Below are positions 3,836 through 11,227 of a stretch of DNA of 44,814 nucleotides, piece by piece. Numbering within the stretch: position 1 is the stretch's first letter; each line of letters opens with the position of its first letter. The notes beneath the pieces were generated by a model. That model did no database searches. It was not told the DNA's origin and saw nothing but the letters and a program-made list of their open reading frames with translations. A program made the translations under genes and the position numbers. Location: positions 1 through 44,814 of the forward strand of contig CALXUE010000012.1 in the NCBI GenBank assembly GCA_944391615.1, in the 5' to 3' direction. The stretch comes from an uncultured Alphaproteobacteria bacterium. Lineage in GTDB: Bacteria > Pseudomonadota > Alphaproteobacteria > RF32 > CAG-239.

Positions 3836-4253
3836 GTTCGTTGGCCTCTTTTTCAAGTTGCTGTTGCTTTTGTTTTAATTTATACATTTGTTGTTCTAGG
3901 TTTGGGTTCTCCTGATAAAATTGTTTTAATTCCGGTGAAATTTCTTCCGGCAATTCTACTTTGTATAAGTAATTGCTCCAGGGGGTCGGCTGCTCTCCTG
4001 CCAACCATAATGTAACGCCTTGGCCCATAACTTCAAGATTGCAAAAACTGTTTTTGACGACTTCTTTTAATAAGCACCAAGTTGATTTTTGGCAGTTTTG
4101 CATAGCTTCATAAGTTTGTCTGGCACATTTGTTAAAGCCTTTGCCTGCGGGGTCATGTTTGGGCGACAGCATCACAAAGGAAAACATTAGAATATACACC
4201 AAGGATATTAGCGATATTATCAGTCCGAACCAATGTTCTTTGATAAAGCGCAT
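3795..4253 (-). CDS. Hypothetical single-pass membrane protein
   Basis: A 152-residue protein of unknown function. Residues ~10-30 (GLIISLISLVYILMFSFVML) form one membrane segment with a short basic N terminus, so most of the chain is likely outside the cytoplasmic membrane. Four cysteines (CARQ, NCQK, WCLL, FCNL) could form disulfides there. The last 40 residues are a Gln/Lys/Glu-rich helix (QMYKLKQKQQQLEKEANEHEK), likely a coiled coil. GGAG lies eight nt before the ATG. It lies between a sugar-nucleotide enzyme gene (3-bp gap) and pepF (41-bp overlap). Confidence 0.8.
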   Translation of the reverse strand: MRFIKEHWFGLIISLISLVYILMFSFVMLSPKHDPAGKGFNKCARQTYEAMQNCQKSTWCLLKEVVKNSFCNLEVMGQGVTLWLAGEQPTPWSNYLYKVELPEEISPELKQFYQENPNLEQQMYKLKQKQQQLEKEANEHEKTNKPAGMGLN

Positions 4254-7516: not shown

Positions 7517-8113
7517 ATGTGTGATATACAGACAATTTGTATTGAAACAGATGATTTTGAGTATTATCTGGCCATGAAATGTGAAGGGTATGATGATATT
7601 TTGTTAAGAAAATGTCTGCCCGTGGCAAAGTTTCAAAATATTGAGGCTTATAGAATTTCTGAAGATGGTAAGTTATTCAGCATTGTTTATGTGGGCGATG
7701 AGGTGAATCATCCGATTTTTAGAATTGATGCGGAGGATTTTGTAGAGCCGCATATTTTTGTTATGAATGAAGCCGTCGTTGTGATGGATTATCTTACTAT
7801 TTCAGCACACGGAATAATGCATGTTGAGGCTTTTAAGCCATCAAAAGCAAGGGTCTTTGGTTCAAAAAACGGATTTGAAATTCCATTTGATTTCAATTGT
7901 ATTGAGTGGTGTTCAGATGTTTTTGTTAACACAAAAGGTAATTTGGTGTTGGTTGGTGCTTCAACAGAATATCAGTTTGGTGTTAGGGGTGATGTTTTGG
8001 CGGCTATTCCTTTTGAGGCTAACAATTTGTTTGAGCATATGCCTTATGGTTGGAAGTCAGCTAAAGAAATTTTGCTTGATGAACAGGCCTTACGCGAAAA
8101 ATTTGAAAAGTAA
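7517..8113 (+). CDS. Hypothetical protein (198 aa)
   Basis: A soluble 198-residue protein with no signal or membrane segment and no motif I recognise. It has several beta-rich stretches (HIFVMNEAVVVMDYLTISAHGIMHVEAF, NTKGNLVLVGASTEYQFGV). It follows the small membrane protein by 13 nt and has no clear ribosome binding site, so its translation may depend on the upstream gene. A hairpin follows. Confidence 0.65.
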   Translation: MCDIQTICIETDDFEYYLAMKCEGYDDILLRKCLPVAKFQNIEAYRISEDGKLFSIVYVGDEVNHPIFRIDAEDFVEPHIFVMNEAVVVMDYLTISAHGIMHVEAFKPSKARVFGSKNGFEIPFDFNCIEWCSDVFVNTKGNLVLVGASTEYQFGVRGDVLAAIPFEANNLFEHMPYGWKSAKEILLDEQALREKFEK

Positions 8114-8126
8114 TTATGTTTTTTTT

Positions 8127-8161
8127 AAAAAGGTGCGGGTAGTTTTGCTCGCACTTTTTTT
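8127..8161 (+). terminator. Probable intrinsic terminator
   Basis: GTGCG pairs with CGCAC, flanked by an A run and seven T residues. It insulates the NAD operon downstream. Confidence 0.7.
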
Positions 8162-8162
8162 G

Positions 8163-8193
8163 TTGCAATTTTATTTTTTATCTTTATTATAAT
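8163..8193 (+). promoter_or_regulatory. Promoter of the NAD operon
   Basis: TTGCAA (8163-8168) lies 16 nt before TATTAT (8185-8190), which overlaps TATAAT (8188-8193). Transcription would start near 8197-8200, at the 5' edge of the structured leader, leaving a 5' untranslated region of about 180 nt. Confidence 0.6.
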
Positions 8194-8197
8194 ACTT

Positions 8198-8249
8198 GTT
8201 CCGGTCGTCCGAAGGGCTTATGGACGAGGAGCAGTGTTAGAACAGAGCC
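8198..8249 (+). promoter_or_regulatory. Candidate cis-regulatory RNA, copy 1 (upstream of nadM)
   Basis: Outer stem GTTCC (8198-8202) with GGAGC (8228-8232); a GG bulge on the 5' side only (8203-8204); inner stem TCGTCC (8205-8210) with GGACGA (8222-8227); an 11-nt loop GAAGGGCTTAT (8211-8221). After a 12-nt linker, GAGCC (8245-8249) can pair with the loop GGCTT (8215-8219) as a pseudoknot. Copy 2 before pncA has the same architecture with a near-identical loop and different stems. I do not recognise a known riboswitch class in it. The link to NAD metabolism is inferred from position. Confidence 0.7.
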
Positions 8250-8355
8250 GAGTTCGAAGAAGGATAAATAAATTTATCTAGCTGGCAACTTTATTTGCAC
8301 ACGCTATATAAATTTATCAGTTTCTAGAATGAAATATAAATCTTTCTGATGTCGG

Positions 8356-8378
8356 CTCCTTAAGTAAGGAGTTTTTTT
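8356..8378 (+). terminator. Terminator hairpin containing the nadM ribosome binding site
   Basis: CTCCTTA (8356-8362) pairs with TAAGGAG (8365-8371), followed by seven T residues ending one base before the ATG. The 3' arm is the Shine-Dalgarno sequence, so the hairpin could stop transcription or hide the ribosome binding site. GCTCCT (8355-8360) could instead pair with AGGAGC (8227-8232) in the upstream RNA element, a plausible antiterminator. This switch is inferred. Confidence 0.65.
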
Positions 8379-8921
8379 ATGTCTGAATATAAATATCAAC
8401 ATGGTTTGAGCATTATGCGGGCGCAGCCTTTTCATATCGGCCACGCGCGATTGATTGACCGTATGCTTAAAGATTGTGCGCAAGTCACCATTATCTTGGG
8501 GTCGATTCAAGAGCAGGGTACGGAGCGCAACCCTCTCAACTACACCACGCGCAAAAAGATGATTCAAAATGTTTATCGCAATTCGCCCGATTATCCGCGC
8601 TTAAAAATCATCGGCTTATTCGACATCAACAATCCGGCGGAATGGGCGGAATATGTTTTGGACTTTATGAACGAGAGCTTGCCGCAGCTTGGGCGGCCCG
8701 ATGTTTATTATGCCGGAAGTTCTTATGATGCGCATTGGTTCAAGGAAGCTTTCAAAAATATTGAATATGTTGACCGCACGGCGGAAGATTTTCCGTTCGT
8801 CACCGGAACGATGGTTCGCGATATGATTAAGTTTGGGGACAAACGTTGGAAAAATTTTGTTCATCCGGAAAACTACCAGTTGATCGAAGATCATTTCTAC
8901 AAAAGAAAAGCAATTATTTAA
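8379..8921 (+). CDS. nadM: NadM-type nicotinamide/nicotinate mononucleotide adenylyltransferase
   Basis: A 180-residue cytoplasmic enzyme that joins NMN or NaMN to ATP to give NAD or NaAD. The nucleotidyltransferase signature FHIGH is at residues ~19-23 (RAQPFHIGHARLIDRML), and the C-terminal ATP-binding motif appears as VTGTMVRDMI. The length fits archaeal-type NadM. Some bacterial NadM proteins carry a Nudix domain; this one does not. SD AAGGAG lies seven nt before the ATG, inside a terminator-like hairpin. First gene of an operon with pncA (87 bp later) and nadE, which supports the NAD assignment. Confidence 0.88.
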   Translation: MSEYKYQHGLSIMRAQPFHIGHARLIDRMLKDCAQVTIILGSIQEQGTERNPLNYTTRKKMIQNVYRNSPDYPRLKIIGLFDINNPAEWAEYVLDFMNESLPQLGRPDVYYAGSSYDAHWFKEAFKNIEYVDRTAEDFPFVTGTMVRDMIKFGDKRWKNFVHPENYQLIEDHFYKRKAII

Positions 8922-8935
8922 TTTTTTTAATCTAT

Positions 8936-8993
8936 CGGTCTTGGTTTTTCGCAGGGCTTATGAAAGAGAGACCGCATTTTAACCTGATAAGCC
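8936..8993 (+). promoter_or_regulatory. Candidate cis-regulatory RNA, copy 2 (upstream of pncA)
   Basis: Outer stem CGGTCTT (8936-8942) with GAGACCG (8968-8974, one U-G pair); a GG bulge on the 5' side only (8943-8944); inner stem TTTTTC (8945-8950) with GAAAGA (8962-8967); an 11-nt loop GCAGGGCTTAT (8951-8961). After a 12-nt linker, ATAAGCC (8987-8993) is fully complementary to the loop GGCTTAT (8955-8961), a 7-bp pseudoknot ending right beside the SD TAAGGAG (8994-9000). That geometry suits control of pncA translation. Confidence 0.75.
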
Positions 8994-9008
8994 TAAGGAG
9001 ATAATATT

Positions 9009-9632
9009 ATGAACGAACGCACGTTAGTTCGCATTGATTTTCAGAACGATTTTGTGGCCGAAGAGGGTAATTTAACAATCAACAATCCGGCGCTGATTGC
9101 ACGCCACCAGCATTTTAATCAGTCTTTGCAAAAGGGAATGTTTACGCAAATTATAGATGCGGCGGACACGCATTTTGCCGAGACTTATCCCAATACCAAA
9201 GAGGCACAATCTTTTCCTGTTCATACAATTTACGGGACTTGGGGTTGGCAAAATGCCGCCGAGTTTAAGGACAATATTCCGGTTGTTAATCTCTATAAAT
9301 CAACCACCAATTTGTGGAATGAAGAAAAAGCTTATGCCGTTTTGCAGCAAGACTGGAGGGGCAAAGAAGTTTATCTTTGCGGTGTGCTTTCCGATATTTG
9401 CGTCAAGCAAGCAATGAACGGTTTTTTGAGCCGCGGGGCAAAAGTTACGGTTTTGGAAGATTTGTGTATGGGGGCAAATCAACAAATGCCTGAAATCATT
9501 CAACAGCCGGTTTATCAAAAAGCGGTTGAAGTCGGTGCGCTCCGGATGATGACATCGCAACAATTTTTTCGTCAGGTGTTGAATGAGAAAAAATTTCAAT
9601 TTAATATGTATCAAAATCAATTCGGGAGATAA
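9009..9632 (+). CDS. pncA: Nicotinamidase (isochorismatase-fold cysteine hydrolase)
   Basis: A 207-residue hydrolase that converts nicotinamide to nicotinic acid. The catalytic triad of the family is visible as D10 (RIDFQNDF), K97 (NLYKSTT) and C131 (GVLSDICVKQA). D53, H55 and H72 (DTH and PVHTIYGT) are at the expected metal-binding positions. The neighbours nadM and nadE support nicotinamidase over other members of the fold. AAGGAG lies eight nt before the ATG, adjacent to the pseudoknot strand of the candidate RNA element. nadE follows after 4 bp. Confidence 0.88.
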   Translation: MNERTLVRIDFQNDFVAEEGNLTINNPALIARHQHFNQSLQKGMFTQIIDAADTHFAETYPNTKEAQSFPVHTIYGTWGWQNAAEFKDNIPVVNLYKSTTNLWNEEKAYAVLQQDWRGKEVYLCGVLSDICVKQAMNGFLSRGAKVTVLEDLCMGANQQMPEIIQQPVYQKAVEVGALRMMTSQQFFRQVLNEKKFQFNMYQNQFGR

Positions 9633-9636
9633 GGTT

Positions 9637-10416
9637 ATGGAAAAAATTTGGCACAAGTTAAAGAGCGGTTTGCAAGATTATTGCGCTAAAAACGGTTTCA
9701 AAAAAGTGATTTTGGGGCTGTCGGGCGGGCTTGATTCCGCGATGGTGGCAGTTTTGGCAGCCGATGTTTTGGGCGGCGAAAATGTTAAGGTGGTGATGAT
9801 GAAAACTAAATATACATCATCCTTAAGCCGGCAAATCGCGCAAGAAATTGCCACTCTTAACCATTTGGATTATCAAGAAATTGATATTGATAATTTGGTC
9901 GCGGTGCAAGGGGATTTTCTGAAAGCCGTTTTTCATGAGGAGCCGAAAGGTGTTGTTTTGGAAAATTTGCAAGCGCGGCAAAGAGGGGTTATCTTAATGG
10001 CGTTGTCTAACCAGACCAATGCGCTGGTTTTGGCTTGCGGCAATAAGTCAGAGGCGGCCATGGGCTATTGCACGCTTTATGGTGACACGTGTGGCGGGTT
10101 GATGCCTTTGGGTAATATTTATAAGTCAGATTTATACGGTTTGGCCAAGTGGCGCAACGAGCAACAGCGCGTTTTGCCGTCTGAGGTTTTGGTGCGGGCG
10201 CCGACGGCCGAACTCAGCCTCAACCAAAAAGATGAGGATAGTTTGCCGCCTTATCCGTTGTTGGATAAAATTTTGAAAGCATATATCGACGAAGGCAAGA
10301 CGATTGATGATATTGTGGCTATGGGGATTAAGCATGATTTGGTGGAGCAAATCATCAGCCGTTATCATAAAATGGCGTTCAAACGTCAGCAAATGGCTGA
10401 GAGCTTGGCAATTTAA
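9637..10416 (+). CDS. nadE: NAD synthetase (ammonia-dependent type)
   Basis: A 259-residue ATP-pyrophosphatase enzyme that amidates NaAD to NAD. The P-loop SGGLDSA is at residues ~29-35. The family stretch GNKSEAAMGYCTLYGD and LGNIYKSDLYGLAKW is present. There is no N-terminal nitrilase (glutaminase) domain, so it would use free ammonia or an unlinked amidotransferase. The ATG at 9637 is chosen because GGGAG lies upstream of it; the frame is open 18 codons earlier, inside pncA. The operon can take nicotinamide to nicotinate (PncA) and NaMN to NAD (NadM, NadE). The linking step, PncB, is not in the window. Confidence 0.93.
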   Translation: MEKIWHKLKSGLQDYCAKNGFKKVILGLSGGLDSAMVAVLAADVLGGENVKVVMMKTKYTSSLSRQIAQEIATLNHLDYQEIDIDNLVAVQGDFLKAVFHEEPKGVVLENLQARQRGVILMALSNQTNALVLACGNKSEAAMGYCTLYGDTCGGLMPLGNIYKSDLYGLAKWRNEQQRVLPSEVLVRAPTAELSLNQKDEDSLPPYPLLDKILKAYIDEGKTIDDIVAMGIKHDLVEQIISRYHKMAFKRQQMAESLAI

Positions 10417-10509: not shown

Positions 10510-10549
10510 GTGGGGTGAAAATTTATTATTAATTAAAAACTCTATAATT

Positions 10550-11227
10550 ATGATTGGATTTATCAAAAAATTGTTTGTGAAAAAACGTTCGCTTCAGCGG
10601 AAATATGATGCGCCGGATGAGGCTTATAAATGGCTCAAGCAACATCAGTTTGATTGTTTGGATGTTCATAAAGCCGTAGATGCTTTATCTAAAGAAGAAC
10701 TTGAAAAAGGAAAGCAGCTTTTATCGCAAGCTCCTAAGACTGTTTATTTTGGGCGTGAGGTCAAAGATTATAAGCGGGTGCTTGATTGGGCGATTTTTGC
10801 TTGGGAAGTGGAACATCATTCCGAGGTGAAAAAGCGCATTGATTGGGATAAGGTTGATATTGAAAAAAGCCTTGTTTTGAAAAACTCGCTTAATGAGGGA
10901 ACTTCTTGGATTGAAATTCAGGAAGGTGACCAAAAAGTTGTTCGTACGCGTCCGGATGTATTTGTTTTTACGCTTTCATTCGCTTATGAAGATTGTCAAT
11001 ATTTTTTGGCTCTTTTAATCCTGATGCGAAAAAACGGGGCATGGTGTTTCAGCAATGATGATGGGCAGGATGTTCCCTTGGTAACAAAGGTGGAGCTTTT
11101 GCCTTTGCCCGATGATGCCAAAAAACAGGTGCAAAATTATGTCGGAAATGAAAAGAACGCACCTATGCCTAAAGCACTGATCAGAATCATGGCGCATAAC
11201 TATCTGGTGCAAAACAATTTGATGTAA
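10550..11227 (+). CDS. Hypothetical protein (225 aa)
   Basis: A soluble 225-residue protein I do not recognise. It begins with a basic segment (MIGFIKKLFVKKRSLQRKY), continues with a helical region rich in Lys, Glu and Trp, and then a beta-like region (WIEIQEGDQKVVRTRPDVFVFTLSFAYEDC). The frame is open upstream to a TTG that is the -35 box, so the ATG at 10550 is preferred. There is no Shine-Dalgarno sequence; TTATTATTAATT lies 15 nt before the ATG. It is followed by the acyl-carrier-like gene, whose leader is very similar. Confidence 0.65.
   Translation: MIGFIKKLFVKKRSLQRKYDAPDEAYKWLKQHQFDCLDVHKAVDALSKEELEKGKQLLSQAPKTVYFGREVKDYKRVLDWAIFAWEVEHHSEVKKRIDWDKVDIEKSLVLKNSLNEGTSWIEIQEGDQKVVRTRPDVFVFTLSFAYEDCQYFLALLILMRKNGAWCFSNDDGQDVPLVTKVELLPLPDDAKKQVQNYVGNEKNAPMPKALIRIMAHNYLVQNNLM

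Follow-up and report, generated by a model that had tools for sequence, protein, structure and literature searches.

What do two similar RNA structures do in front of two neighbouring NAD genes of an uncultured alphaproteobacterium? The window analysed here, that is the whole stretch of 44,814 nucleotides, is contig C12 of a 1.57-Mb genome in 32 contigs which is estimated to be 100% complete. A preliminary description, made from the sequence, placed one copy of a pseudoknot-like RNA before nadM (8198-8249) and a second one before pncA (8936-8993), and suggested either a riboswitch for NAD or a precursor or a protein-binding site. The positions, stems and loops of both copies agree with that description base by base. 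We consider it probable that the two copies are OFF riboswitches, which likely bind NAD+ or a close relative (NaAD, NaMN) and feedback-repress the NAD operon.

NAD genes and RNA copies in the window

The gene set consists of a nadM-like gene, a pncA-like gene and nadE. The names NadM and PncA are assigned by similarity, as both proteins exceed the cut-offs of broad Pfam families and stay below those of the NCBIfam models for the exact enzymes. The RNA copies occupy the gaps around the nadM-like gene, 8114-8378 for copy 1 and 8922-9008 for copy 2. The corresponding features are:

8188-8193, forward strand: likely -10 box TATAAT, read from the sequence
8198-8232, forward strand: hairpin of copy 1, with stems P1 GTTCC/GGAGC (8198-8202/8228-8232) and P2 TCGTCC/GGACGA (8205-8210/8222-8227); match of the hairpin covariance model R3 at 8196-8234 with 54.3 bits; covariation
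8203-8204, 8211-8221 and 8233-8244, forward strand: bulge GG, loop L2 GAAGGGCTTAT and 12-nt linker of copy 1
8215-8219 with 8245-8249, forward strand: loop pairing of copy 1, GGCTT of L2 with GAGCC, a kissing or pseudoknot contact of 5 bp including one G-U
8379-8921, forward strand: nadM-like gene (mononucleotide adenylyltransferase); PF01467 30.1 bits, cut-off 21; NCBIfam nicotinamide-nucleotide adenylyltransferase models at most 58.6 bits, below their cut-offs
8936-8974, forward strand: hairpin of copy 2, with stems P1 CGGTCTT/GAGACCG (8936-8942/8968-8974) and P2 TTTTTC/GAAAGA (8945-8950/8962-8967); R3 match with 50.3 bits; covariation
8943-8944, 8951-8961 and 8975-8986, forward strand: bulge GG, loop GCAGGGCTTAT and 12-nt linker of copy 2
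8983-9000, forward strand: CCT (8983-8985) and AGG (8996-8998) around the loop partner of copy 2, in the MFE fold of this copy
8987-8993, forward strand: loop partner ATAAGCC of copy 2, pairs with GGCTTAT (8955-8961) in 7 bp, or 8 with G8954-T8994
8995-9000, forward strand: SD AAGGAG of copy 2, one base past the loop pairing
9009-9632, forward strand: pncA-like gene (isochorismatase-fold amidase); PF00857 56.7 bits, cut-off 27; NCBIfam nicotinamidase model 29.5 bits, below its cut-off of 174
9637-10416, forward strand: nadE, NAD synthase; TIGR00552 195.1 bits, above its cut-off; PF02540 220.7 bits

The putative -10 box would place the start of transcription at P1 of copy 1 or close to it. A strict TTGAC..TAnnnT pattern precedes 18 of 55 distinct nadM copies, and in 17 of these 18 it ends 1-5 nt before the hairpin model. 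The proteins encoded at 7517-8113 and 10541-11227, which flank the NAD genes, gave no Pfam or NCBIfam match at an E value of 0.001.

In the whole 1.57-Mb genome the pattern GGNNNNNNGNAGGGCTTAT occurs twice, exactly at both copies, and its backwards control does not occur at all. The folding energies, with z values of -1.32 and 0.20 for the full copies and of -2.60 and -1.50 for the 39-nt hairpins, are unremarkable by themselves and therefore the comparative evidence had to decide. Taken alone, the full-copy values would agree with two hairpins that are alike by chance, a reading that is taken up again below.

Conservation and covariation of the hairpin

Representative genomes scanned with the NadM protein yielded 56 nadM loci, all of them derived from metagenomes; their titles mostly name Alphaproteobacteria and in many cases an animal gut or rumen sample. 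As it recurs in the order (see below), the hairpin comprises P1, a 2-nt bulge, P2 and an 11-nt loop with the consensus G[AC]AGGGCUUAU. R3 matches lie directly 5' of nadM in 53 of the 56 loci, the remaining three being L084, L086 and L088. Copies were extracted by pattern (53 of the nadM type and 39 of the pncA type, window included), and removal of near-duplicates gave the alignments A1 (41 copies) and A2 (28 copies). P1 and P2 are paired in 95.3% of the cells of A1 and 97.2% of those of A2, with changes on both sides in 10 of 11 and 11 of 13 stem pairs, respectively.

The covariation that the preliminary description had read from the two copies alone is borne out by A4, a gap-free set of 39 distinct and diverse hairpins of both the nadM and the pncA type, from which copy 1 of L121 as well as L086 and L088 (other loop lengths) and L059 (shorter hairpin) were left out. 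All 12 stem pairs show compensatory changes, with 170 both-sided cells and 95.5% of the cells paired. The covariation score was reached by none of 500 shuffles, a test which ignores the kinship of the sequences, and slid controls were paired in only 43-51%. Since up to five standard pair types occur per pair, a single inherited change is an unlikely cause of this covariation.

The GG bulge on the 5' side, described earlier for both copies, is present in the window, whereas relatives show NG and not always GG: G occupies the second position of the bulge in 97 of 98 copies (55/56 of the nadM type and 42/42 of the pncA type). Four loop bases of A4 (G16, A18, A25 and U26) lie outside the nadM pairing and are yet invariant in this alignment; L044, which is not part of A4, deviates at G16. 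Such conserved unpaired bases would be what a binding pocket needs.

In two of the three loci without R3 match, L086 (3868-3902, forward strand) and L088 (3867-3901, forward strand), a divergent element with the 9-nt loop GAGGGCAAT is located 5' of the nadM of another lineage (53% and 44% identity). This element is below detection by R3 and was recognised by eye. Its counterparts of the loop partner and the anti-partner (see below) read GGCCG/CGGCC, and by eye both sides have changed together in comparison to the other leaders; the shorter loop would, again by eye, form only about 3 bp with the partner. Around position 4001 (forward strand) of L084 a nadM-nadE pair (60% identity) is found without the element, and by eye an upstream reading frame apparently lies near nadM.

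Searching 153 genomes of the order with R3 gave 95 matches in 54 genomes, 94 of them with E values of at most 2.7e-5 and one weak. All 94 strong matches sit directly 5' of nadM (54) or pncA (40), and R1, the nadM-type model, finds the same 54 genomes of the order; the 153-genome set and the 56 loci are largely the same public genomes, and their counts are not additive. Together with one pair from L073 and one pair from G183, 98 copies were accepted, the lowest accepted R3 match having 28.9 bits. The first gene downstream of the matches is nadM in 56 cases, pncA in 42, and neither for two weak ones. A covariance-model search had been proposed along with the preliminary description, and its outcome, with every strong match of the order before one of these two genes and with compensatory changes present, is in line with what had been claimed. 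For covariance searches of more than 40 genomes the filters were stricter; weak matches are lost by them, and divergent versions elsewhere could escape. A pattern search with one mismatch in 152 genomes was too loose, as its backwards control was often equal or higher, and covariance models were therefore used.

Outside the order the element is sparse in the samples searched. R1 matched five genomes in a sample of 385 genomes of the class, of which four were accepted. These four RNA carriers are the four genomes with a close NadM (at least 62% identity), while three more genomes with a remote NadM (32-48% identity) gave no RNA match. G183 belongs to a different order, is its only member in the sample, and carries both copies. 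In a sample of 398 genomes of the phylum matches were found only in G183 plus a weak one in G453. Rejected as chance were the R1 match in G277 (25.9 bits), a stretch which by eye resembles coding DNA, and the matches G092:C11:208876 (21.6 bits) and G453 (22.7 bits), with no match to NadM, PncA, PncB or NadE in the up to 4.2 kb searched downstream.

A mere chance likeness of the two hairpins is already refuted by this conservation with compensatory changes, and we give it practically no credence: against the plain folding energies stand the restriction of the pattern to the two sites, the compensatory changes in every stem pair of A4, the position of all 94 strong matches of the order and the matches in 53 of 56 nadM loci.

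The gene order of the operon is most often nadM-pncA-pncB-nadE, genes which we take to form together a route from nicotinamide to NAD. Single copies also occur 5' of nadM-nadE (e.g. L202, L193) and of nadM-pncB-nadE (L220, L221). In L203, L219 and L174 (genomes G093, G141 and G007) copy 2 was not detected, although pncA is part of the operon. The PncA proteins of these three loci are more divergent and share 47-52% identity with that of the window.

In the genus of the window, nicotinate phosphoribosyltransferase (pncB) was found neither with PF17767 in 11 genomes nor with PF04095 in the one genome searched, and NadA (PF02445) was found in none of 11 genomes and NadD (TIGR00482) not in the one genome searched. 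This genus has pncA and nadE without any pncB found.

Loop pairing and the predicted platform of the nadM leader

The loop-complementary segments downstream of the hairpins had been described as GAGCC (5 bp with one wobble) and ATAAGCC (7 bp), and they are supported by compensatory changes in L121 for the nadM copy and in L192, L210 and L126 for the pncA copy. The 12-nt linker noted for both copies is present in the window; its length is not conserved among the relatives. In the nadM copies GGCUU of the loop and GAGCC are almost invariant and paired in 98.5% of the cells (41 copies, A1). As judged from the sequences, covariation speaks for this pairing only through L121, whose nadM copy has the compensatory combination GGCUA/UAGCC, since the pairing otherwise hardly varies. 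In the pncA copies the loop GGGCUUAU pairs with AUAAGCCU, with 7-8 bp in 37 of 42. The pncA loop GGGCCUAU is matched by the partners AUAGGCC, UAGGCC or AGGCC (L210, L192, L126), which is a compensatory change found in three genera, one of them in the other order; a further loop change in the pncA copy of L212 breaks one pair. The loop pairing covaries in a few lineages, another order among them.

The partner of the pncA copies ends a few nucleotides 5' of the SD. In the window this distance is one nucleotide, and the earlier statement that the pairing of copy 2 abuts the SD is correct. In 21 of 42 pncA copies the longest local duplex is a short CC..GG one that takes in the SD, which is weak support for such a stem. 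The pncA leader of L073 (2188-2281, forward strand) carries two similar tail segments, AACCTTAGCCTCAAGG and AACCTTAAGGCAATAGCCGAAAAGG; its loop may have two partners.

Two features of the nadM leader are absent from the preliminary description, namely a further stem, P3, which encloses the loop partner, and a predicted expression platform at 8352-8379:

8240-8255, forward strand: P3, GAAC (8240-8243) with GTTC (8252-8255), which encloses the loop partner GAGCC (8245-8249); a stem of at least 4 bp in relatives
8245-8251, forward strand: GAGCCGA, which can pair either with L2 (8215-8219) or, in 7 bp with TCGGCTC, with the anti-partner (8352-8358)
8352-8358, forward strand: anti-partner TCGGCTC, similar to L2; its CTC overlaps the 5' arm of the SD hairpin
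8356-8378, forward strand: SD-masking, terminator-like hairpin CTCCTT (8356-8361) with AAGGAG (8366-8371), then T7 (8372-8378) up to the ATG; -5.7 kcal/mol

A P3-type stem of at least 4 bp around the loop partner is possible in all 55 distinct nadM copies if a sliding register is allowed; in fixed register 88.4% of the cells are paired, and the RNAalifold consensus shows the hairpin and not P3. Because a stem encloses the partner in all 55 copies, the contact is best drawn as a loop-loop (kissing) interaction.

At the end of all 56 nadM leaders stands GGCUCCU-loop-AGGAG-U6-9-(A)AUG or a sequence close to it (a pattern search found 55, and L202 was assigned by eye), and all 56 show the layout of an intrinsic terminator with a hairpin directly followed by T6-9. 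The SD forms the 3' arm of this hairpin, and the U-run reaches or adjoins the start codon. The calculated energy has a median of -5.5 kcal/mol over 54 leaders, and termination at a hairpin this weak is uncertain. In the general kind of anti-terminator-decoy riboswitches, too, one segment of the aptamer pairs either within the aptamer or with the platform, and a hairpin with a U-run is present. The nadM leaders differ from these in that the SD itself makes up the 3' arm of the hairpin and the U-run extends to the start codon, and one hairpin could therefore be both terminator and SD mask.

The sequence CGGCUC 5' of the SD hairpin is loop-like and complementary to GAGCCG, the loop partner. All 54 distinct leaders captured share GGCUC, though its GG is dispensable for the SD hairpin; L202 has UGCUC. 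At position 6 of the partner and the base opposite, the 54 leaders have G-C (37), A-T (6), A-C (5), G-A (4), A-A (1) and G-G (1), with no G-T. This position covaries in part (Fisher p 3.8e-5 from a table of G/A by C/T, in which kinship is ignored), and it is unpaired with the anti-partner in 11 of the 54 leaders.

Folding of the free leader in silico gives a median probability of 0.89 for the pairing of partner and anti-partner, with values above 0.5 in 45 of 54 leaders; for GAGCCGA of the window 0.89 is predicted as well. The SD hairpin reaches 0.27 in the free leader and the SD is still mostly paired, at a median of 0.66, with other bases, in the free fold of the window e.g. with the U-run. 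According to these predictions the ON state of the nadM leader is not cleanly open. When loop and partner are constrained to the kissing state, the probability of the SD hairpin goes from 0.27 to 1.00; it rises in all 54 leaders and by more than 0.2 in 49. As holding loop and partner removes the rival pairing by construction, this shows exclusivity and not a measured switch. In the model the pairings of GAGCC with the loop and with GGCUC are mutually exclusive. The alternative of a leader peptide was dismissed by eye.

Structured leaders without ligands exist, and the two RNAs might likewise sense nothing and act as fixed attenuators, stability elements or processing sites which tune the NAD genes. 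A fixed structure would need neither the conserved unpaired loop bases nor the two exclusive pairings of the nadM leaders, and we regard such a role as very improbable.

Proposed mechanism and ligand, and relation to described classes

For the two copies as OFF riboswitches the following mechanism is proposed. In the nadM leader with bound ligand the loop would hold GAGCC, which would free GGCUCC for the hairpin that buries the SD and is followed by the U-run; translation would be blocked and transcription probably terminated, too. Without ligand GAGCCG would pair with CGGCUC and prevent the SD hairpin. In the pncA copy the loop pairing stabilised by the ligand would hide the adjacent SD directly. 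The operon as a whole would be under the control of copy 1, with copy 2 acting on pncA only. Since the loop pairing would mask the SD in both layouts, both copies would be OFF switches provided that a metabolite stabilises this pairing.

Two general marks of a riboswitch are found in this arrangement. Sequence comparison establishes the structure, its covariation, the loop pairing and the placement 5' of nadM or pncA, and thus a conserved, covarying and aptamer-like structure in the leaders of related metabolic genes. The second mark comes by prediction: the nadM leader would have two exclusive states in which a segment of the aptamer is shared with a mutually exclusive platform, and in the pncA copy, whose partner abuts the SD, the SD would be occluded. 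We infer that the trigger is a small molecule and that this molecule is NAD+. As most operons hold the genes of the route from nicotinamide to NAD, the end product NAD+ is the best candidate for the ligand.

The same downstream effect would result if the hairpin were a protein-binding site and the bound protein, for instance an operon-encoded NAD enzyme that acts on its mRNA or some RNA-binding repressor, stabilised the loop pairing. This is the main rival explanation and we consider it unlikely, although a conserved loop plus bulge is also recognised by RNA-binding proteins and the tie of the element to nadM and pncA fits autoregulation. Among the six to seven proteins of the window scanned no dedicated regulator was recognised by family models, with three proteins matching no model and the enzymes of the operon remaining candidates. 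The kissing and decoy design together with the invariant unpaired bases rather resembles aptamers. A riboswitch is favoured over a plain protein site by the second, exclusive pairing that is open to the loop partner next to the terminator-like hairpin which masks the SD. The anatomy therefore favours the riboswitch among the functions offered by the preliminary description, a metabolite being more likely than a protein as the bound partner.

A riboswitch-like RNA of the same layout could also respond to a ligand other than a pyridine nucleotide on the product side of the pathway, such as nicotinamide, nicotinate, PRPP or ATP, and its sign might differ. The gene context narrows the ligand without fixing one, and the genus of the window carries the element with an unclear pathway, pncB having been found in none of 11 genomes. 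An OFF state with loop pairing in both layouts would fit an end product better than a substrate, and we hold a ligand of this kind to be quite improbable.

With NAD+ as the preferred ligand, the relation to described riboswitches has to be considered. None of the families in the Rfam 15 copy used matched at its cut-off in the window and 10 relatives, and at E values up to 10 nothing near its cut-off overlaps either copy; weak matches around 8100-8170 and elsewhere are far below the cut-offs and were dismissed. In the open papers searched, a scope outside which most subscription papers lie, no description of a "nadM motif" or of a third NAD+ riboswitch was found. The element works like a riboswitch by its layout and fits no described class, just as the preliminary description had matched it to no riboswitch class, the two NAD classes included; NAD+-I and NAD+-II are set apart by their topology according to their published descriptions. 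In the literature covered, two classes of NAD riboswitches are described, and those who reported the second class anticipated that there may be further ones (PMC7749635).

We put forward with some reserve, and at slightly less than an even chance, that the element represents a third natural NAD+ riboswitch class. Its hallmarks would be a hairpin with a bulge, the end loop of which forms a kissing contact with a hairpin further downstream, and the use of one aptamer for two different outputs within an operon. For nadM the output would be a decoy that mimics the loop, coupled to a terminator-like hairpin masking the SD, and for pncA the direct occlusion of the SD. Few coenzymes are as central as NAD, and if the assignment is true this would be the third riboswitch class for it, in carriers that are uncultured Alphaproteobacteria known here from metagenome bins. 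The RNA is small, every stem pair covaries, and the model predicts exactly which mutations break or restore it, which makes binding and switching directly testable.

The NAD+-II riboswitch (pnuC motif), which binds NAD+, NMN and NR, is likewise a small RNA before an NAD-related gene (PMC7749635, PMC10085692). In these two descriptions (PMC7749635, PMC10085692), the 5' strand of its pseudoknot lies between P1 and P1a and the loop of P1a is variable and unimportant, whereas here the conserved 11-nt end loop provides this strand. NAD+-II further has an A5 strand between P1 and the 3' strand of the pseudoknot, in a triplex with P1 (PMC7749635, PMC10085692), and the linkers of our two copies contain no five consecutive A. 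The internal bulge here is just 2 nt long, unlike that of NAD+-II, and the gene context given there is almost only pnuC in contrast to nadM and pncA (PMC7749635, PMC10085692).

The NAD+-I riboswitch (nadA motif), which according to one paper is limited to Acidobacteria (PMC7749635), shares with our element the NAD gene context, the sequestration of the SD and two similar units per gene cluster (PMC7708056). It is described as tandem Y-shaped domains in one leader with coaxial P1, P1a and P1b, two junctions and no pairing of an end loop (PMC7708056). In comparison to this published layout (PMC7708056), each leader here contains one hairpin with a 2-nt bulge, and the two copies serve two genes with a distance of about 740 nt between them.
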